DNA of 64,000 nt from Pseudochryseolinea flava (GTDB lineage Bacteria > Bacteroidota > Bacteroidia > Cytophagales > Cyclobacteriaceae), in contig NZ_QMFY01000010.1 in assembly GCF_003286915.1 (NCBI RefSeq), forward strand, positions 1 through 64,000, given 5' to 3'. The position numbers were made by a program, and so were the translations under genes. Below are positions 50,644 to 59,639 of the stretch, one piece after another. How positions within the stretch are numbered: position 1 is the stretch's first letter; each line of letters opens with the position of its first letter. The notes below the pieces were generated by a model. It was not told the DNA's origin and searched no databases. It saw only the letters and a list, made by a program, of their open reading frames with translations.

Positions 50644-51195
50644 TCAACTTAGGTTCGTTGTACCAAAGAGTCCGAGGGATGATTCATGGTTTGTAATCAC
50701 CTTCCAAACTTCGAGTTGGTCTTTGAGATTTCCATGCTCGTCGATATGCTGAAGCGCAATGCGATCCTCTAACAATGTTCGGCCAATAAGCTTACTTCTG
50801 TGACATTCCGTTGGTTTTGTTTCGCTGCACATTAACGCAATGGGAAGTTCTTTCTGCTGGGCCGTCTTCAAACGCGCAATGCCCTCTTGGTAAAACGATT
50901 TTGATTTTACTTTTTCATAATTAACATTGCCTTTCAAATCGTAACACGACGGGTCTGAAGGCCTACCGCCGATGCTATCGCCCATAAAAACATACATTAT
51001 ACCTTCATCGGTCAGTGATTGCTGAAGACGTTCTCGATTGTATTGAGGGCTATAAGTCGAATAGGGTACAGATCGAACATCAATCAAATAGTTAATGCCG
51101 TAGATTTTCAATAGTCGGACGAACTCCTCGATAGATCGTGTTCCATGTCCAATAGAAAAAAGTGTAGATGTATTCACAGATAAAAAATTCAACAC
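50644..51195 (-). CDS. DUF488 protein
   Basis: The 183-residue protein has the DUF488 motifs: FSIGHGTRSIEEFVRLLKIYGI, LIDVRSVPYSTYSPQYNRERL and the cysteine loop ALMCSETKPTECHRSKLIG. The conserved Arg, Ser and Cys residues suggest a catalytic or binding site, but no reaction is known. It lies between hemF and the S24 repressor and is transcribed in the same direction as the repressor. ATG at 51195 is the only good start. Confidence 0.75.
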   Translation of the reverse strand: MLNFLSVNTSTLFSIGHGTRSIEEFVRLLKIYGINYLIDVRSVPYSTYSPQYNRERLQQSLTDEGIMYVFMGDSIGGRPSDPSCYDLKGNVNYEKVKSKSFYQEGIARLKTAQQKELPIALMCSETKPTECHRSKLIGRTLLEDRIALQHIDEHGNLKDQLEVWKVITNHESSLGLFGTTNLS

Positions 51196-51272: not shown

Positions 51273-52073
51273 CTATCCCTTGCGCTTCATGGTTTTGTCT
51301 TTGCCCTTCCCTATCTCCTCTTGTAATTTTAGTACTTGTAACGCCAGTTGATCTGAAAGAGATTGGTTTGACGATACTTCTGGAAATTGGTTTGAAAAGA
51401 ATGCTTTTGCAGACCATACCTCAAGCACGTCACTTGTATTAATACTATAAGGCGCGTATTGACGGTTGTCAGAAACCAGCAACAACTTGCCCTGATCATC
51501 CGCAAAATTGAAGATTCGTTTAAATACGATTCCATCTTGTTCAGTGACAATGATGTATAGTTTTCCGTTTTTTATTGAAGTGGTGTCGTCGATGTATTCC
51601 CCGAAGATGACGCTACCAGGCTGAATAGGTAACATTGAGTCACCTTGAATTTCAAAAGCTCTGTAGGTTTTGTTTTTGGGTAACATCGGAAGGCTAACCT
51701 TCGGGAGTTCCTTTACAAATTCAGGATCTTGGTATCCGGCTAAATATCCAGCCGAAGCTTTCTGCGAAACGAGCTCGACATTTTCTTTATTGTCGCGATC
51801 GACGGTGATTGCCAGGATTTCCTTTCCTTTCGAAGCCGACTTTCCTTTCCAATCCTTCTCAGGAAGTCTGCTAAGGTCTGCATTGACAATAGCATCAATG
51901 GTTACGTTGAATATTTTGGTGATGTCGAGTAGTGATGACAGTGGCGGAGTTGAGCGCTCTTCTTCGTAGGCGCCAATCGCGGCCTGCTTTAAACCAAGCT
52001 TTTCTGCCAATTGCTTTTGCGTCAGTCCGTGTTTGGCGCGCAAAAACTTTAGATTCTTATTCACATTTGCCAT
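51273..52073 (-). CDS. LexA/CI-like repressor: XRE helix-turn-helix plus S24 self-cleaving peptidase
   Basis: The 266-residue protein has an N-terminal XRE DNA-binding domain (about 5-62: LRAKHGLTQKQLAEKLGLKQ AAIGAYEEER) and a C-terminal S24 peptidase. The Ala-Gly cleavage dipeptide is A108-G109 in KASAGYLAGY. Catalytic Ser146 is in QGDSMLPI and Lys185 in GIVFKRIF. In this family DNA damage (RecA filaments) or another signal triggers self-cleavage and loss of repression. It is divergent from dinB with 299 bp between starts, so control of the dinB-dnaE unit is likely but inferred. The C-terminus has a short coiled region (LALQVLKLQEEIGK). Confidence 0.85.
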   Translation of the reverse strand: MANVNKNLKFLRAKHGLTQKQLAEKLGLKQAAIGAYEEERSTPPLSSLLDITKIFNVTIDAIVNADLSRLPEKDWKGKSASKGKEILAITVDRDNKENVELVSQKASAGYLAGYQDPEFVKELPKVSLPMLPKNKTYRAFEIQGDSMLPIQPGSVIFGEYIDDTTSIKNGKLYIIVTEQDGIVFKRIFNFADDQGKLLLVSDNRQYAPYSINTSDVLEVWSAKAFFSNQFPEVSSNQSLSDQLALQVLKLQEEIGKGKDKTMKRKG

Positions 52074-52117
52074 AGCGAATTATTTTAAACACAAGTATAA
52101 TCATAGTCGTGATAAGT

Positions 52118-52144
52118 AGGGACGCAAAACGTATTTGCGTCCCT
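52118..52144. repeat. Perfect 11-bp inverted repeat
   Basis: AGGGACGCAAA (52118-52128) and TTTGCGTCCCT (52134-52144) are perfect complements around ACGTA. It is 45 bp upstream of the repressor start. No T-run follows on either strand. It may be a dispersed intergenic palindrome of a kind common in Bacteroidota, a leader hairpin of the repressor mRNA or an operator. Confidence 0.6.
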
Positions 52145-52315
52145 GAAGATTCCTCCGGGCAACCACGCGCAGAGAATTTATCACGGGACAAGAACTTTTA
52201 TTTACTCGTCCGCCAACTAAGAACAATCAATAAAGAGAGCAGGAGAAAACAGCTATGGCAAAACAGACAATTTCTTTACTGAACTTCTCTTTATCTGTCG
52301 TTCAATGATTCAAAA

Positions 52316-52328
52316 CTAAAATATTTAG
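52316..52328 (+). promoter_or_regulatory. Putative repressor operator 1 upstream of dinB
   Basis: CTAAAATATTTAG is a perfect 5-bp-arm palindrome (CTAAA-ATA-TTTAG), 44 bp upstream of the dinB ATG. It matches operator 2 at 11 of 13 positions. It is proposed as a binding site for the divergent S24 repressor. Confidence 0.45.
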
Positions 52329-52348
52329 ATTAACCGTGCAAATATTAA

Positions 52349-52361
52349 CTAATATTTTTAG
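52349..52361 (+). promoter_or_regulatory. Putative repressor operator 2 upstream of dinB
   Basis: CTAATATTTTTAG (extended AACTAATATTTTTAGTT, 52347-52363) is palindromic. It ends 11 bp before the dinB ATG, with its centre 33 bp from that of operator 1, about three helical turns. That spacing would place both sites on one face of DNA, suitable for paired repressor dimers. Confidence 0.45.
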
Positions 52362-52372
52362 TTCTTTGTTTT

Positions 52373-53584
52373 ATGGATCGAAACATTGTGCACTTAGACT
52401 TGGACGCTTTTTTTGTTGCCGTCGAGTGCCGCAACAATAGGAAGTTACTTGGAAAGCCGCTCATCATCGGCGGTAGCAGTCGTCGTGGTGTTGTGGCTGC
52501 ATGCAGTTATGAAACCCGGAAGTTCGGCGTTCATTCCGCTATGCCGATGTATCTTGCGCTGCAACTTTGTCCCGATGCTAAAGTAATCTCTGGCGACGTA
52601 GAAGCTTACAGTAAATGTTCACATGAAGTGACGGAGATCATTGCTGAGGCTGCTCCTACTTTCGAAAAGTCGTCGATCGATGAGTTCTATATTGATGCCA
52701 GTGGAATGGACCGATACTTTGGCGCTTTCAAATGGGCAGTCGAACTTCAAAAGAAAATTGTCAAGGAATCACATCTTCCCATTTCCATGGGAATGTCTGT
52801 TAACAAGCTTGTGTCTAAAGTTGCTACCGGTGAATTTAAACCCAACGCATCAAAGCACATCCCCGATGGCACCGAAAAGGATTTCCTCGCGCCGCTTGGT
52901 GTCGAAAAAATCCCTATGATTGGCAAACAAACCGCATCGTTCCTTTATGATATGGGCGTGCGCACTGTCTCCACGCTCCGTGAGATGCCCGTGAACTTTC
53001 TGATTAGCGCTTTTGGAAAAAATGGAATCTCACTGTGGAATAAAGCAAACGGCATCGACGATTCGCCTGTTGTACCTTACGCTGAGCAGAAGTCCATTTC
53101 AACGGAATGTACATTCGACGAGGATACGATCGATGTAAAGCGATTGAATTCAATTATGATTGCAATGGTCGAGAAAGTTGCCTTCACCTTGCGGGAGCAG
53201 CACAAACTCACCTCCTGTGTTACAGTCAAAATTCGCTATTCTAATTTCGACACGGAAACAAAACAAATACGTGTCCCCTATACTTCTGCTGATCACGTCC
53301 TGCTTCAAACCGTCACTGAACTTTTTAAGAAACTCTATAATCGGAGAATGCTGATCAGACTCGTGGGGGTTAGACTCAGCGGTCTTGTTTACGGCAATCA
53401 GCAGATCAGTTTATTTGACGACACAGCATCGTCTATCAATCTGTACGAGGCTATTGATAAAATTAAACATCGCCATGGTGTAGAGAAGATCGTTCGCGCC
53501 ACAACGCTCGATGTCAATAAACGTGTGCGCATGGAACTGAATATGTTTAAGGGACCAAAATATCCCCTGAAGAATGTAGGGTAA
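52373..53584 (+). CDS. dinB: Y-family DNA polymerase (DinB/Pol IV type)
   Basis: The 403-residue protein has the metal-binding aspartate D9 in HLDLDAFF and D103-E104 in SIDEFYID. The helix-hairpin-helix region IPMIGKQTASFLYDMGV and the little-finger domain follow. A beta-clamp-binding motif, QISLFD, is at 344-349, followed by an extended tail of about 50 residues. It copies across damaged bases with low fidelity. It is first in the plus-strand run and directly downstream of the two putative operators. Extra C-terminal residues are as in many ImuB-like or DinB relatives of Bacteroidota. Confidence 0.92.
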   Translation: MDRNIVHLDLDAFFVAVECRNNRKLLGKPLIIGGSSRRGVVAACSYETRKFGVHSAMPMYLALQLCPDAKVISGDVEAYSKCSHEVTEIIAEAAPTFEKSSIDEFYIDASGMDRYFGAFKWAVELQKKIVKESHLPISMGMSVNKLVSKVATGEFKPNASKHIPDGTEKDFLAPLGVEKIPMIGKQTASFLYDMGVRTVSTLREMPVNFLISAFGKNGISLWNKANGIDDSPVVPYAEQKSISTECTFDEDTIDVKRLNSIMIAMVEKVAFTLREQHKLTSCVTVKIRYSNFDTETKQIRVPYTSADHVLLQTVTELFKKLYNRRMLIRLVGVRLSGLVYGNQQISLFDDTASSINLYEAIDKIKHRHGVEKIVRATTLDVNKRVRMELNMFKGPKYPLKNVG

Positions 53585-53708
53585 CAAACGCAAGAAAAGA
53601 ATGGAGATCCGAAGATGTGACACTGATTGACACAAGACCAAACGATCTTCGAACCATGCTTCAAAAACGGAAGCGCATGAAAACGTAACAAAAAAAACAA
53701 ATCATCTT

Positions 53709-54260
53709 ATGAAATCATCATCATTGAAAGTCCTGCCGAATTATCTTAGCCCTGTTCAGGAGTTGTATTTCATGATCACACCTCCACGTCACATTATGAG
53801 CGATGTGTCTGTATTAAAAGACGATGTACATTATTTAATCGGTCATAAGTTTGATGATCAGTTCTCAAAAGCTCATGTCCCGCTATTCCGTTACAGCGAT
53901 CACTATGCGAAAGACATGGTACGATTTGTCGAATCCAAAGCGTCTGCGTTTAAGCCTTTCAATATATTGTTAAAAGATTTTGGCGTCTTCTATAATGGAA
54001 ATAAGCGTACCGTATATATGGACATTGTCTATAAATCACCTATTCAGGAAATTTTTGAAGCGCTCGTTAAAGAGGACAAGAACTACGTTCCACATATCAC
54101 CATCGCTAAAAATCTTTCTACAGAGGACTACTTGCGCTGCTGGCCATATTTAAAAAGTCTCAACTACGGGAATCAACACTTCCTTTGCGACCGGATTACA
54201 GTACTCACGAAGAAGGACAACCAATGGATTCATTACAAAGAGATTCTTTTTGGGGAGTAG
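53709..54260 (+). CDS. 2H phosphoesterase (2'-5' RNA ligase-like)
   Basis: The 183-residue protein has the two His-containing motifs of the 2H superfamily: KAHVPLFRY at about 57-65 and VPHITIAKN at about 128-136, each H-x-P/T-aliphatic. The length and the pair of His residues fit the LigT-like group, which acts on 2'-5' or cyclic phosphodiester bonds in RNA. It lies 124 bp after dinB and 48 bp before recQ. A 2H enzyme in a repair operon is unusual. It could process RNA ends or a cyclic nucleotide signal, but this is speculation. The first motif is less canonical than the second. Confidence 0.65.
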   Translation: MKSSSLKVLPNYLSPVQELYFMITPPRHIMSDVSVLKDDVHYLIGHKFDDQFSKAHVPLFRYSDHYAKDMVRFVESKASAFKPFNILLKDFGVFYNGNKRTVYMDIVYKSPIQEIFEALVKEDKNYVPHITIAKNLSTEDYLRCWPYLKSLNYGNQHFLCDRITVLTKKDNQWIHYKEILFGE

Positions 54261-54307
54261 TTTCTCCCACCGTTAGCCCGAACACAAACCGTTACCTGTT
54301 ATTGAAT

Positions 54308-56512
54308 ATGAAACCATTTGAAATTCTCCAAAAACAATTTGGCTATGCATCCTTTCGCCTGGACCAAGAAGCGATTATTGATTCAGTAATTACGAAGCGT
54401 GATACATTCGCCTTGATGCCTACGGGCGGAGGTAAATCTCTTTGTTACCAAATCCCTGCACTGTGCTTTGAAGGTGTGACCATCGTGATCTCACCTTTAA
54501 TTGCACTGATGAAAGATCAAGTTGACGCGCTCCGTCTTAATGGTGTCGCTGCTGCCTATCTTAACTCAACACAATCTTACCGCGAACAAGCCGATATCAT
54601 TGACCAGGCACGTCTCGGTAAAATGAAACTTCTATACGTTGCCCCTGAAAAAATTTTGCGCGACGTCGGTGATCGTGATAAACTTTGTCATGAAAATTTC
54701 AACCCGACGTTATCGCCATTCCTTCAAAGCATACTTTCATTAAAAGTCAGTCTGGTTGCTATCGACGAGGCGCATTGCATTTCTCATTGGGGGCACGACT
54801 TCCGTCCTGAGTACCTCATGCTTGCACACATTCGACGACTGATGCCACAGACCCCATTCATTGCGCTTACCGCTACAGCGGATCGTGTAACGCAAAAAGA
54901 TATTGTAGAGAAACTTGACCTTAAAGATCCTAATATTTTTATATCAAGTTTCAACCGCGCTAATATTCGTTACACAGTGCAACCGAAGCGCTCGGGACTT
55001 GAAAATTTGCTCCATTTCTTAAAAAAACATCAAGAGGATTCAGGCATCATCTATTGCTTCTCACGGGCGGCAACGGAGAAACTCGCCCACGACTTAAAGA
55101 CCCATGGCTACTCAGCACTTGCTTATCACGCCGGCATGGACAAGTCTGTACGGGCACAGCACCAAGATCTCTTCCTTCGCGACCAAGTGAAGATTATGGT
55201 CGCGACCATTGCATTTGGTATGGGCATCGACAAATCAAATGTCCGGTATGTGGTGCATATGGATCTTCCAAAAAATATTGAAAGCTATTATCAGGAAACC
55301 GGGCGCGCTGGAAGGGACGGGCTAAACAGCGAGGCACTTTTATTTTTTGGACTTCAAGACGTCGCTAAATTGAAACGATTCGCCGTCATCGAAAACAATC
55401 CGGAGCAAACTGAAATTGCCGTCCGGAAAGTGGAGCAAATGGCACGATACGCCGAACTGAATTCATGTCGCCGAAAATATTTGTTAAACTATTTCGATGA
55501 AAAAACAATCGAACATTGCGGCAATTGCGATACGTGCTCGTCGACTTTTGAGTTTTACGACGGCACGGTAGTCGCGCAAAAAGTATTGTCGGCGGTATCG
55601 AGATTACAAGAGCGATTCGGGAACGCGTACGTAATCGATTTTTTACGCGGAACGACGAATGAGAAAATGACTGATGAACATAAGGCCATGAAAACGTATG
55701 GCATCGGAGCAGATCTCACAAAGCATGAATGGAACAAAATCATCCACGAGCTTATCGACCTGGGGTTTCTACGAAAAGCTGAAGGGCTTTACCCAGTTTT
55801 AAAATTATCAGAAAAATCTGAGGCGGTACTTAGGAATGAAACGAAGGTCACTTTCACAAGACTTAAATTGACGGCCGATTACCAACAGACAAGTGGTGAT
55901 TACGACCAGGCACTTTTCAATGCGCTAAAAGCATTACGACGCACACTAGCTGAGCGTGAAAACGTCGCGTCATACATTGTTCTTTCTGATGCATCCCTTG
56001 TTGAGCTTGTAACTTACTTACCACTAAGCACCATTGACATCTCGAAAATTGCTGGTTTCGGAGAAGTAAAAATGAAGAAATACGCGGCGGATTTTCTCGG
56101 GGTTATTGTGTCGTACTGTAAAGCAAATCAACTCGAAAGCCGCATGGCACAAAAACCGACAAAGTCCCGGCGAGAGCGAACAAACCGTGAGCATGAACCC
56201 GACACAAAACTGCAAAGCTTAGAGCAGTTTAAGCGTGGGCATACCGTTCATGAAATCGCAGCGCATCGACAGTTGAAACAATCAACTATTGAGGAACACC
56301 TGTCCTACTATTTACAAAACGGAACACTCTCTATCGACGAACTGATCACAAAAGATAAATATCAGGCGATTGTACAAGCATTGGCTAAAGCAGATACTGT
56401 GGCATTAAGTCCCGTAAAAGAAATTCTCGATCATAGTATAACCTATGGCGAGATTCGATGGGTAAAAATAGCACTCGAGAATGACCGAAGACGTTTACAA
56501 CATACGCATTAA
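54308..56512 (+). CDS. recQ: RecQ-type ATP-dependent DNA helicase
   Basis: From ATG at 54308 (MKPFEILQKQF) it has 734 residues. An upstream start would overlap the 2H gene and add a non-homologous tail. Motifs are Walker A TGGGKS at about 39-44, AIDEAHCISHWGHDF, the CFSRAATEKLAHDLK region, YYQETGRAGRDG, the four-Cys zinc site CRRKYLLNYF with CGNCDTC, then winged-helix (RQC) and an HRDC domain. A C-terminal helix-turn-helix-like part (HEIAAHRQLKQSTIEEHLSY) follows. It unwinds DNA in recombination repair, moving 3' to 5' in this family. It is placed between the translesion polymerase and DnaE. Confidence 0.93.
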   Translation: MKPFEILQKQFGYASFRLDQEAIIDSVITKRDTFALMPTGGGKSLCYQIPALCFEGVTIVISPLIALMKDQVDALRLNGVAAAYLNSTQSYREQADIIDQARLGKMKLLYVAPEKILRDVGDRDKLCHENFNPTLSPFLQSILSLKVSLVAIDEAHCISHWGHDFRPEYLMLAHIRRLMPQTPFIALTATADRVTQKDIVEKLDLKDPNIFISSFNRANIRYTVQPKRSGLENLLHFLKKHQEDSGIIYCFSRAATEKLAHDLKTHGYSALAYHAGMDKSVRAQHQDLFLRDQVKIMVATIAFGMGIDKSNVRYVVHMDLPKNIESYYQETGRAGRDGLNSEALLFFGLQDVAKLKRFAVIENNPEQTEIAVRKVEQMARYAELNSCRRKYLLNYFDEKTIEHCGNCDTCSSTFEFYDGTVVAQKVLSAVSRLQERFGNAYVIDFLRGTTNEKMTDEHKAMKTYGIGADLTKHEWNKIIHELIDLGFLRKAEGLYPVLKLSEKSEAVLRNETKVTFTRLKLTADYQQTSGDYDQALFNALKALRRTLAERENVASYIVLSDASLVELVTYLPLSTIDISKIAGFGEVKMKKYAADFLGVIVSYCKANQLESRMAQKPTKSRRERTNREHEPDTKLQSLEQFKRGHTVHEIAAHRQLKQSTIEEHLSYYLQNGTLSIDELITKDKYQAIVQALAKADTVALSPVKEILDHSITYGEIRWVKIALENDRRRLQHTH

Positions 56513-56600
56513 TATTGGTCATGGCTGCCGTGGCGTCAAACTTTCTTGGCTCGATTTCAAAATGTTTGATAACCTAATATAAAAACACGAAAGAAGACAC

Positions 56601-59600
56601 ATGTATCTGAATTGTCACACCGCTTTCAGTTTTAAATATGGCACACTTCGCATTAAAGATCTTTTTGCTGAAGCCAAACGGTGTCAGGTAGGGAAACTTG
56701 TGCTCACTGAAATTAACAACACGTCGTCTTACATTGAAATGCTTCGTGTTTGCGCAGAGCATGCGACTGTTCCGGAAACCGGATTGACAAAATACGGAAA
56801 GGAATCACACAACTTAGAAATAGCTGTTGGTGTCGAATTCCGTCAAGACAATCAACTGTTATATATCGCGATTGCTAAAAATAACAATGGGTTTGAGAGA
56901 ATTAACCGTTTTTTATCTTTTCACAACCGAGACGGTCGCCGCTTTCCAAATCGCGCACCTGCGTTAGAGGACGTGTTCATCATCTACCCGTTTCGAACGG
57001 AACCAGAAACGCTGCGCATAAATGAATTCATCGGCGTTCGAAAGTCAGAGCTTACACAACTTGCTCTATACAAACCATATCAGGACTATCGTGACAAATT
57101 TGTGGTTCTCCATCCTGTCACCTTTGCAACGAAAAAAGGATTTAACATCCATCGGTTGCTGCGTGCAATTCATCACAACACACTGTTAAGCAAACTTGCG
57201 CCGGAGCAACAGGCACAAAGCGATGAAATTATGGAACCAGAGGAAGCGCTTAAGCAAGCTTTCGACGAGTTCCCTAATCTGGTGTGGAACGCTGAAAAGT
57301 TGATCTCCCAGTGTAGTTTAGATTTTCAACTCGGAAAAGACAAAAATAAAAGTACTGTCACGGGCAGTACAGCGGATGATCTTGCCCTTCTGCGACAAAA
57401 GGCTTGGGATGGATTCGTTCAAAGGTACGACGCAAACAGCCAAGTACTTGTCGAACGTTTCGAACGTGAAATGCAAGTCATTCAGCAAAAAAAATTCTGC
57501 GGGTACTACCTCATTACATACGATCTGATTCAATTCGCCCAGCGAAAACGGTTTGATTATGTTGGACGAGGCAGCGGTGCCAATAGTTTAATTGCCTATT
57601 GTCTCGGCATCACGAACGTGGACCCGGTAGCGCTGAATCTATACTTTGAAAGATTCCTAAATGAGGAGCGTGCATCTCCGCCGGATTTTGATATCGACTT
57701 CTCGTGGGATAATCGCGACGCGATTTATGAATACCTTTTTGAACGATATGGACAAGAACACGTGTGCTTACTCGGCACCCATGTCACGTTCCAACGCCGC
57801 TCCATCATTCGTGAACTAGGAAAGGTCTTTGGACTGCCCAAAGATGAGATCGATGACTTGGTCGAATTCCCTGAAAAGAATAAAGATCGTGATCACATCA
57901 CTAAACTGGTCATCGAGTACGCAGGCTATATCATTCAAAAAGAGTTGCCCTCCAATATGTCCATTCACGCGGGTGGCGTATTGATTACAGAGAAACCCAT
58001 CTATGCCTATACGGCAACTGAACTACCGCAGAAGGGATATCATGTGTCGCATTTTGAAATGCAAGGTGCAGAAGATATGGGTATCTTCAAATTTGATATT
58101 CTCAGCCAACGTGGACTAGGTCATTTAAAGGAAGCGGTTCGACACATCAGCAGGAACAAGGGCGTTGCAATTGATATCCATCGTTATGGTGAATTTATGG
58201 TTGATGAAAAGATCAAAAAAATCATGCGCAGCGGCAAGACCATGGGATGTTTCTATGTTGAATCACCCGCAATGCGAATGCTACTGGAGAAACTACATTG
58301 TGAAGATTATCTCACGCTCATTGCAGCAAGCTCGATCATCAGGCCAGGTGTCGCCAGCTCTGGGATGATGAAAACATATATCGAAAGGTTCCACCTTACC
58401 CAGAAAGGAAAAACATACGATGTAATCCATCCTTTCATCGATGAACTCATGAAGGAGACTTACGGTGTAATGGTTTACCAGGAAGATGTGATCAAAGTAG
58501 CCCACCATTTCGCTGGACTTACACTCACGGAAGCCGATGTACTACGGCGAGGCATGTCGGGGAAATATCGATCTCGCGAAGAGTTTCAGCAGGTGAAAGA
58601 AAGATTTTTCGAATGCTGCGCGCAAAAACATTACCCGCTTCACATCACTGAACGCGTGTGGTATGAAATCGAAAGTTTTTCAGGTTTTTCATTTGCAAAA
58701 GGTCACTCTGCAAGCTATGCTGTCGAAAGTTATCAAAGCCTTTTCCTGAAAGCACATTACCCACTAGAATTTATGGTCGGCGTCATCAACAACTTTGGTG
58801 GCTTTTATAAGACCGAATTCTATTTCCATGAGGCAAGAATGAACGGAGCAGAGATTGAGGCCCCGTGCATTAATAGTAGCGACTATCTCACAACGATTTA
58901 TGACGAAAAAATCTTTATGGGATTTATTCACATCAAGAGTCTTGAGGGAGCGGTGGCAAAAGAAATTTCCATCGAACGCGGACGGAATGGTGCATTCAGA
59001 AGTCTTGACGATTTTTTAAGTCGCGTGACGATGGGATTAGAACAGATTCGCATTTTGATCCGAATTGGAGCACTCCGGTTTACGGGCAAAAGCAAGCAAA
59101 AACTATTGTGGGAGGCGATGCTTCATTATAGCCAAGCAAAAACAAAAAAAACAACGACTGCGCTATTCGACACCGAGCCGAAGGATTATCCACTTCCAAC
59201 ATTAACGAGACACGCGATAGAAGACGCCTTTGATGAGATCGAACTTCTTGGATTTCCATTATGTGATCCATTTTGTTTACTAGAGACTACAGATCGCGGC
59301 GACACGCTGGCCATTGAACTGCGTAAACGTATCGGCCAGCAAGTTCATATTATCGGATATCTGGTTACCGTAAAAGATACAGGTACAAAGTCTGGAGATC
59401 GAATGAATTTCGGAACGTTTTATGATTCTCAAGGCGAGATATTCGATACGATACATTTTCCTCAAATTGCAAAAAGATTTCCGCTAAGAGGCAGGGGTTT
59501 CTATTCCATTAAAGGAATTGTCATCGAAGATTTCGGTGTCGCCATGATTCAGGTCGCGTCAATGGAAAAATTGCACATCATCAACAAACGCGCGGAAGAA

Positions 59601-59639
59601 TTCATGCAAGAGAATATTGCAGAAAGTAAGTTTCACTAG
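56601..59639 (+). CDS. DNA polymerase III alpha subunit, accessory (DnaE2-like)
   Basis: The 1012-residue C-family polymerase has active-site aspartates D364 and D366 in SPPDFDIDFSWD and D499 in FKFDIL, all kept. The PHP domain (1 to about 250) has lost ligands: the family motif H-x-H-x-x-x-S begins N-C-H here (N4, H6) and the second motif reads LTEINN instead of LTDHGN. It is shorter than replicative DnaE (about 1160), with a compact C-terminus that keeps an OB-type region. Such DnaE2-like enzymes extend or bypass lesions with ImuB or DinB partners. It is last in the dinB-2H-recQ-dnaE series, 88 bp after recQ. No proofreading subunit is present. Confidence 0.88.
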   Translation: MYLNCHTAFSFKYGTLRIKDLFAEAKRCQVGKLVLTEINNTSSYIEMLRVCAEHATVPETGLTKYGKESHNLEIAVGVEFRQDNQLLYIAIAKNNNGFERINRFLSFHNRDGRRFPNRAPALEDVFIIYPFRTEPETLRINEFIGVRKSELTQLALYKPYQDYRDKFVVLHPVTFATKKGFNIHRLLRAIHHNTLLSKLAPEQQAQSDEIMEPEEALKQAFDEFPNLVWNAEKLISQCSLDFQLGKDKNKSTVTGSTADDLALLRQKAWDGFVQRYDANSQVLVERFEREMQVIQQKKFCGYYLITYDLIQFAQRKRFDYVGRGSGANSLIAYCLGITNVDPVALNLYFERFLNEERASPPDFDIDFSWDNRDAIYEYLFERYGQEHVCLLGTHVTFQRRSIIRELGKVFGLPKDEIDDLVEFPEKNKDRDHITKLVIEYAGYIIQKELPSNMSIHAGGVLITEKPIYAYTATELPQKGYHVSHFEMQGAEDMGIFKFDILSQRGLGHLKEAVRHISRNKGVAIDIHRYGEFMVDEKIKKIMRSGKTMGCFYVESPAMRMLLEKLHCEDYLTLIAASSIIRPGVASSGMMKTYIERFHLTQKGKTYDVIHPFIDELMKETYGVMVYQEDVIKVAHHFAGLTLTEADVLRRGMSGKYRSREEFQQVKERFFECCAQKHYPLHITERVWYEIESFSGFSFAKGHSASYAVESYQSLFLKAHYPLEFMVGVINNFGGFYKTEFYFHEARMNGAEIEAPCINSSDYLTTIYDEKIFMGFIHIKSLEGAVAKEISIERGRNGAFRSLDDFLSRVTMGLEQIRILIRIGALRFTGKSKQKLLWEAMLHYSQAKTKKTTTALFDTEPKDYPLPTLTRHAIEDAFDEIELLGFPLCDPFCLLETTDRGDTLAIELRKRIGQQVHIIGYLVTVKDTGTKSGDRMNFGTFYDSQGEIFDTIHFPQIAKRFPLRGRGFYSIKGIVIEDFGVAMIQVASMEKLHIINKRAEEFMQENIAESKFH

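Follow-up and report, generated by a model that had tools for sequence, protein, structure and literature searches.

Does a five-gene cassette of Pseudochryseolinea flava, in which an S24-type repressor gene faces a run of polY (dinB), 2H, recQ and dnaE genes, represent an undescribed SOS-like system, or does it belong to a network that is already known? The cassette occupies positions 51,273 to 59,639 of contig NZ_QMFY01000010.1 (assembly GCF_003286915.1), of which we analyzed the first 64,000 nucleotides, referred to here as the window; G, C and L numbers are our handles for genomes, contigs and loci. A preliminary description of the DNA had proposed the former, with RecQ and a 2H enzyme taking the places of ImuA and classical LexA. 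Our analysis indicates that the locus is very probably a Bacteroidetes SOS operon of a type already known, with polY-2H-recQ-dnaE under the control of a CI-derived LexA. Predicted operators, regulon and repressor family lend good support to SOS-type control by the S24 repressor, and this part of the proposal stands, while the claim of an undescribed system gives way to earlier reports (PMC8565304, PMC6511836, PMC12926913). All five open reading frames (ORFs) are intact, the repressor gene is divergent from the other four, and the gaps within polY-2H-recQ-dnaE measure 124, 47 and 88 bp. The features are as follows.

51273..52073, minus strand: repressor, non-canonical LexA-type (Pfam HTH_3 and Peptidase_S24), 266 amino acids
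52316..52328, no strand: operator 1, perfect CTAA-N5-TTAG (motif from PMC8565304)
52349..52361, no strand: operator 2, perfect CTAA-N5-TTAG, 33 bp start-to-start from operator 1
52373..53584, plus strand: PolY (DinB/Pol IV-like) Y-family polymerase (Pfam IMS and IMS_C), 403 amino acids
53709..54260, plus strand: 2H (LigT/2'-5' RNA ligase-like) protein (Pfam PF13563, 2_5_RNA_ligase2, E 9.4e-11, above cut-off), 183 amino acids
54308..56512, plus strand: RecQ helicase, start ATG at 54308 (Pfam DEAD, Helicase_C, RecQ_Zn_bind, RQC, HRDC and a C-terminal HTH_40; TIGR01389, 748 bits)
56601..59639, plus strand: DnaE2-like C-family polymerase (Pfam PHP, DNA_pol3_alpha, finger and HHH_6), 1012 amino acids

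Operators, regulon and repressor family

The two operators at 52316 and 52349 lie 45 and 12 bp before polY and at least 243 bp from the repressor start, within a promoter region common to repressor and polY. Perfect CTAA-N5-TTAG sites number 57 in the whole genome of 6.54 Mb, so that chance would place about 0.003 sites in the 299-bp divergent region, where two were observed. Single sites are not enriched as such, and the argument for operators rests on position and pairing, not on the number of single sites. Tandem site pairs outnumbered the reversed pattern by 40 to 0 in the seven genomes of the genus and by 77 to 2 in all 59 genomes searched, 27 of which carry at least one pair.

Our regulon survey covered 34 of the 57 sites, of which 13 fall within ORFs of at least 150 amino acids, six have no ORF start inside 250 bp and 15 lie near gene starts. 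The near-start sites include two each at the cassette, at recA and at a PA0069-type radical SAM gene (with a divergent ORF on the other side), and one each at a UDG-linked radical SAM gene (TIGR03916), at SRAP (205 bp upstream) and at imuA; the rest are three at two members of an unnamed small-protein family and three at other ORFs (L009, L012, L021). The identified genes match the CTAA regulon as given in PMC8565304. That report describes the SOS regulators of Bacteroidetes as repressors with helix-turn-helix (HTH) and S24 domains, acting at GGA-N5-TCC or CTAA-N5-TTAG operators, with electrophoretic mobility shift assays for one repressor of each operator group and induction by mitomycin C in three species, one of which showed no induction of its recA. 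In the case of Elizabethkingia anophelis, an error-prone polymerase gene lies opposite the regulator gene and is induced as well as it (PMC8565304).

Members of the small-protein family (112-228 amino acids) stand directly behind SOS operators in 11 of 27 chosen loci, with several paralogues in some genomes. One lies outside the window, behind an SOS operator (L016:3082-3450, corresponding to G000:C1:192081-192449), and relatives occur at L022, L195, L198, L200, L202, L203, L207, L209, L212 and L213. Four members searched against Pfam and PHROGs, and two against NCBIfam, gave no match above cut-off, DUF2443 coming closest at E 0.017. The ATP-dependent DNA ligase gene at L207:1154-2077 (G021) is divergent from an SOS operator pair and a family member.

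The repressor itself carries the CI-type HTH and S24 architecture, the Ala-Gly site and the Ser-Lys dyad by which the Bacteroidetes non-canonical LexA is recognized. Ala108, Gly109, Ser146 and Lys185 are invariant across 18 aligned repressors, the window's included, which together with the intact ORFs and Pfam families bears out the preliminary account of an S24 repressor facing polY(dinB)-2H-recQ-dnaE. It shares 47-51% identity over nearly its full length with proteins of eight Pontibacter genomes, the genus of the bench-tested CTAA-group protein (WP_025606010.1; PMC8565304), and by this pairwise comparison appears related to that group. A scan with the repressor alignment collected these and other relatives. 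Among the best 80 named loci out of at least 554 confirmed relatives, 68 have a site between 450 bp upstream and 20 bp inside the called start, including loci from Pontibacter, Hymenobacter, Pedobacter and Sphingobacterium. Judged by sequence, the repressor matches what has been published on non-canonical LexA in Bacteroidetes (PMC8565304).

A PF00717 search of the genome returned two proteins at E<=0.001, namely the cassette repressor, which is the sole HTH-S24 protein found, and a LexA-family protein on C22 (L036:1249-1875, G000; TIGR00498, 156 bits against a cut-off of 111). The latter contrasts with PMC8565304, which reports Bacteroidota without LexA homologues. Its gene lies directly before that of a CBASS-type cyclase (L036:1902-2876), whose best match falls below its own cut-off.

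The polymerase pair and a second DnaE2 system

PolY carries a SIDEFY motif, which we take to be its active-site motif, and QISLF at 344, presumably a clamp-type motif; RecA-NT motif tests at its C-terminus gave weak results only. Aligned to E. coli DnaE, the window DnaE keeps the catalytic Asp, has degraded PHP metal-ligand positions and lacks the DnaE1 C-terminal domain (CTD). In a tree for which the window sequence was realigned with MAFFT, polY-linked DnaE proteins formed a single clade (100/100) apart from ImuAB-type DnaE2 and DnaE1, the comparison covering these types and one Streptomyces DnaE2, which grouped with the ImuAB type. The tree label 'ImuABlinked' was assigned by type, no ImuB-sized ORF being seen next to L306, and in the member L120 polY is near dnaE but not adjacent to it. 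With its active-motif PolY linked to a CTD-less DnaE with a degraded PHP site, the pair fits the DnaE2-PolY (DnaE2B-PolY-RecA) putative mutasome published for Bacteroidetes (PMC6511836, PMC12926913).

The genome also holds imuA-imuB-dnaE2, on contig C46, where the ImuA match is below the curated cut-off and the assignment of ImuA rests on position. The C46 ImuB lacks the SIDEFY motif that the window PolY has, and neither ImuA nor ImuB was found among the ORFs and Pfam matches of the window operon. The stated absence of ImuA and classical LexA is thus correct for the cassette and incorrect for the genome, given imuA-imuB-dnaE2 on C46 and the LexA-family protein on C22. The idea that RecQ and 2H replace ImuA and LexA is not supported, in view of imuA-imuB-dnaE2 elsewhere in the genome and of polY-dnaE pairs that have nothing between them in at least 11 of 40 related loci read. 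If the window DnaE belongs to the DnaE2B group, two DnaE2-type systems in one genome would qualify the statement in PMC12926913 that DnaE2B genomes are without ImuA and ImuB.

Elsewhere, the cassette dnaE is split into two overlapping ORFs in the draft genomes at L099 (G001) and L338 (G333), where it is broken or misassembled. Pairs of polY(dinB) and dnaE also occur on plasmids of Emticicia (conjugative), Adhaeribacter (non-mobilizable) and Chryseobacterium (mobilizable) (L322, L323, L324), two of them adjoining an HTH/LexA-type regulator and two adjoining SRAP.

The 2H and RecQ genes in related cassettes

We searched 390 family genomes, an even sample of a larger group, for close 2H relatives (E<=1e-15) and found them in 48, the surroundings of which were all read, with G000 standing for the window itself. 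Four further loci (L215, L216, L217, L219), on contigs of equal length, apparently duplicate G127, G030, G234 and G039 and were not added. In 40 of the 48 genomes 2H follows polY within the cassette; in three (G001, G240, G295) the contig ends before polY, and dnaE or recQ-dnaE follows 2H; the remaining five (G285, G214, G308, G274, G319) showed no cassette gene within the sequence read, a mere 3.1 kb in the case of G308. The recQ gene lies within the cassette in 20 of 48, as 2H-recQ in 18 (G050 having only a fragment at the contig end) and in the order polY-recQ-2H in G261 and G329. Gene order is conserved across several genera, contrary to the outcome that the preliminary description had named as refuting its proposal, and the arrangement is therefore not due to chance.

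Each of the 40 polY-2H cassettes has at least one operator at polY: two upstream in 30, one in nine, and, in G410, two that fall barely inside a polY ORF whose start seems over-extended. Spacing in the two-operator cassettes is 33 bp in 23 of 30. A divergent repressor (match at E<=1e-25) lies in the stretch read at 30 of the 40 and is not found there at the other 10. One genome, G039 (L107, L108; contig shared with the Chryseotalea sanaruensis loci L219 and L272), has two polY-dnaE cassettes, both provided with a divergent repressor and operator sites of their own, and a 2H gene in only one of them.

Transposase-like ORFs of the IS200/Y1 type were seen between SOS cassette genes at L107, L332, L331, L338, L357, L360 and L365, and a different type within the cassettes L356 and L358. 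Such ORFs were observed in several of 15 wide-gap loci; of the two checked with Pfam, one narrowly passed the PF01797 cut-off and the other narrowly missed it. We take the IS200/Y1-type ORFs to resemble REP-associated transposases.

Catalytic 2H phosphoesterases are defined by two HxS/T motifs. The window protein has HIT at motif 2 and an altered motif 1, HVP, which qualifies the preliminary description of a phosphodiester enzyme; its match to the fold family is above the Pfam cut-off. Both motifs are HxS/T in 27 of 47 readable 2H proteins (window counted; G001, cut at a contig edge, was left out here and from the dN/dS set), among them the cassette 2H protein of Chryseotalea sanaruensis, and at least one is altered in 20. 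Among 26 close, linked 2H proteins the catalytic columns rank only 85th-127th of 178 in conservation, and in a wider set of 42 linked proteins 37th-62nd of 173, not among the 30 best conserved yet well up in the ranking. The protein is under purifying selection: among 105 pairs at >=70% identity, 58 with usable dS, the median pairwise ratio of nonsynonymous to synonymous substitution rates (dN/dS) was 0.066 for 20 intact-motif pairs versus 0.097 for 38 pairs in which one motif or more is altered, the pairs being non-independent and including some unlinked copies. Selection in altered-motif pairs is slightly weaker, yet still strong. In the pair G249/G109, where the second catalytic His is Ser in both, dN/dS is 0.065, showing that selection persists without this residue. 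Both motifs are also lost in two of five unlinked copies, so that loss is not tied to cassette linkage. No match to the 2H protein was found in phage or plasmid collections. An AlphaFold model (three sequences) had a mean confidence score (pLDDT) of 33 and was not used.

These patterns suggest that 2H is a 2H-fold accessory protein with dispensable catalysis. A working phosphodiesterase, which during SOS would clean damaged or ribonucleotide-derived ends or degrade cyclic-nucleotide signals, seems to us rather unlikely: the intact motifs of the majority, the ranks in the wider set, the somewhat higher median dN/dS of altered-motif pairs and the CBASS cyclase in the genome speak for it, but they are set against the HVP motif of the window protein, the altered motifs in 20 of 47 relatives of a protein on which selection stays strong, and the low ranks among close linked proteins.

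The genome has further RecQ genes on C11 and C44, which makes the cassette copy an additional paralogue. A close stand-alone relative in G022 has a perfect operator about 40 bp before the gene; none was seen in the sequence read at the other five close stand-alone relatives or at three more RecQ loci. RecQ (COG0514) is given as a CTAA-motif target in several species in PMC8565304. PADLOC labelled the cassette RecQ as DpdF, which we took as general RecQ similarity in view of its TIGR01389 recQ score.

Alternatively, 2H and RecQ might be passengers in a frequently invaded SOS operon, with no part in lesion bypass. Related cassettes that lack both genes, the presence of recQ in a minority of the 48 genomes and at two different positions, the transposase-like ORFs inside several cassettes and the motif losses in unlinked 2H copies would all fit this. 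Against it stand the cassette location of 2H in most genomes that have the gene, across several genera and at low dN/dS, and the operator of the G022 RecQ gene (one of nine non-cassette loci), and we regard it as rather unlikely.

A proposed SOS operon and its known counterparts

We infer the following course of events from the sequence. As long as the DNA is undamaged, polY-2H-recQ-dnaE would be kept silent by the CI-derived LexA (51273-52073) bound to the tandem operators (52316-52361). Once RecA forms filaments on single-stranded DNA, the repressor would cleave itself at Ala108-Gly109, which would release the operon together with recA, imuA-imuB-dnaE2, the two radical SAM genes and SRAP. 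Copying past lesions would then fall to PolY and the accessory DnaE, probably assembled with RecA and the clamp into a mutasome. RecQ may act on stalled forks or gaps, and 2H may have an accessory part for which many relatives do not need its catalysis. By analogy with the degenerate RecA (ImuA), peptidase (UmuD') and polymerase (ImuB) recruited elsewhere, we propose, quite tentatively and with more doubt than confidence, that in the Cyclobacteriaceae/Fulvivirgaceae branch the 2H fold has become a largely non-catalytic third component of the PolY-DnaE mutasome, that the same SOS operon also took in RecQ, and that this mutasome is run beside ImuA-ImuB-DnaE2 under one phage-derived LexA.

It is very improbable that the repressor is instead a dedicated local switch of a phage-type or mobile mutagenesis island, controlling the cassette only and no genome-wide SOS regulon, since its CI-like character (phrog_4), its divergence from the cassette and the related plasmid-borne polY-dnaE pairs, some with an adjacent regulator, are opposed by its being the only HTH-S24 protein found in the genome, by the same operator before recA, imuA, the radical SAM genes and SRAP, and by ORFs at 47.5-63 kb that by eye look like housekeeping or surface genes and not phage genes (the DUF488 neighbour alone being family-scanned). 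From the look of these neighbouring ORFs, a prophage origin of the cassette is likewise unlikely. The DUF488 protein (50644-51195 of the window, minus strand; Pfam) lies just 3' of the repressor gene, and nothing links it to the cassette. Across 51.1-59.75 kb, promoter-like sites (7 versus 16.1 in shuffles) and terminator-like sites (9 versus 8.4) showed no excess, and Rfam gave no match at 49-61 kb.

As an SOS operon of the Bacteroidetes type, the supposedly undescribed system is now placed within a published network. What appears to be new is the enlargement of the PolY-DnaE unit by a 2H-fold accessory and RecQ in this branch, the repressor family and the polymerase pair being already published; a title-level literature search, which left most subscription journals uncovered, returned no on-point title for a 2H gene, or for recQ, within a polY-dnaE operon. 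The testable addition is a conserved 2H protein, often missing its catalytic residues, tied to a translesion polymerase pair. Were 2H a mutasome subunit, mutagenic polymerases would have co-opted yet another enzyme as a structural component.

Compared with the CTAA-group LexA regulon (PMC8565304), the present system has the same CI-like HTH and S24 domains, Ala-Gly and Ser-Lys residues and operator, often two per promoter, and shares predicted target types that include dinB-dnaE, imuA-imuB-dnaE2, recA, the radical SAM-UDG gene and SRAP; it differs in having 2H and recQ inside the polY-dnaE unit, which the consulted passages of that report do not mention. With the DnaE2-PolY mutasome of Bacteroidota (PMC6511836, PMC12926913) it has in common an active-motif Y-family polymerase and a CTD-less, reduced-PHP DnaE, but 2H and RecQ are inserted between polY and dnaE, and, unlike the DnaE2B genomes as PMC12926913 describes them, this genome has imuA-imuB-dnaE2. 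The LexA-controlled imuA-imuB-dnaE2 cassettes likewise combine a Y-family member with an accessory DnaE under SOS control, whereas the window PolY keeps its active-site motif, the operon is without ImuA and ImuB, and its DnaE belongs to a separate clade.

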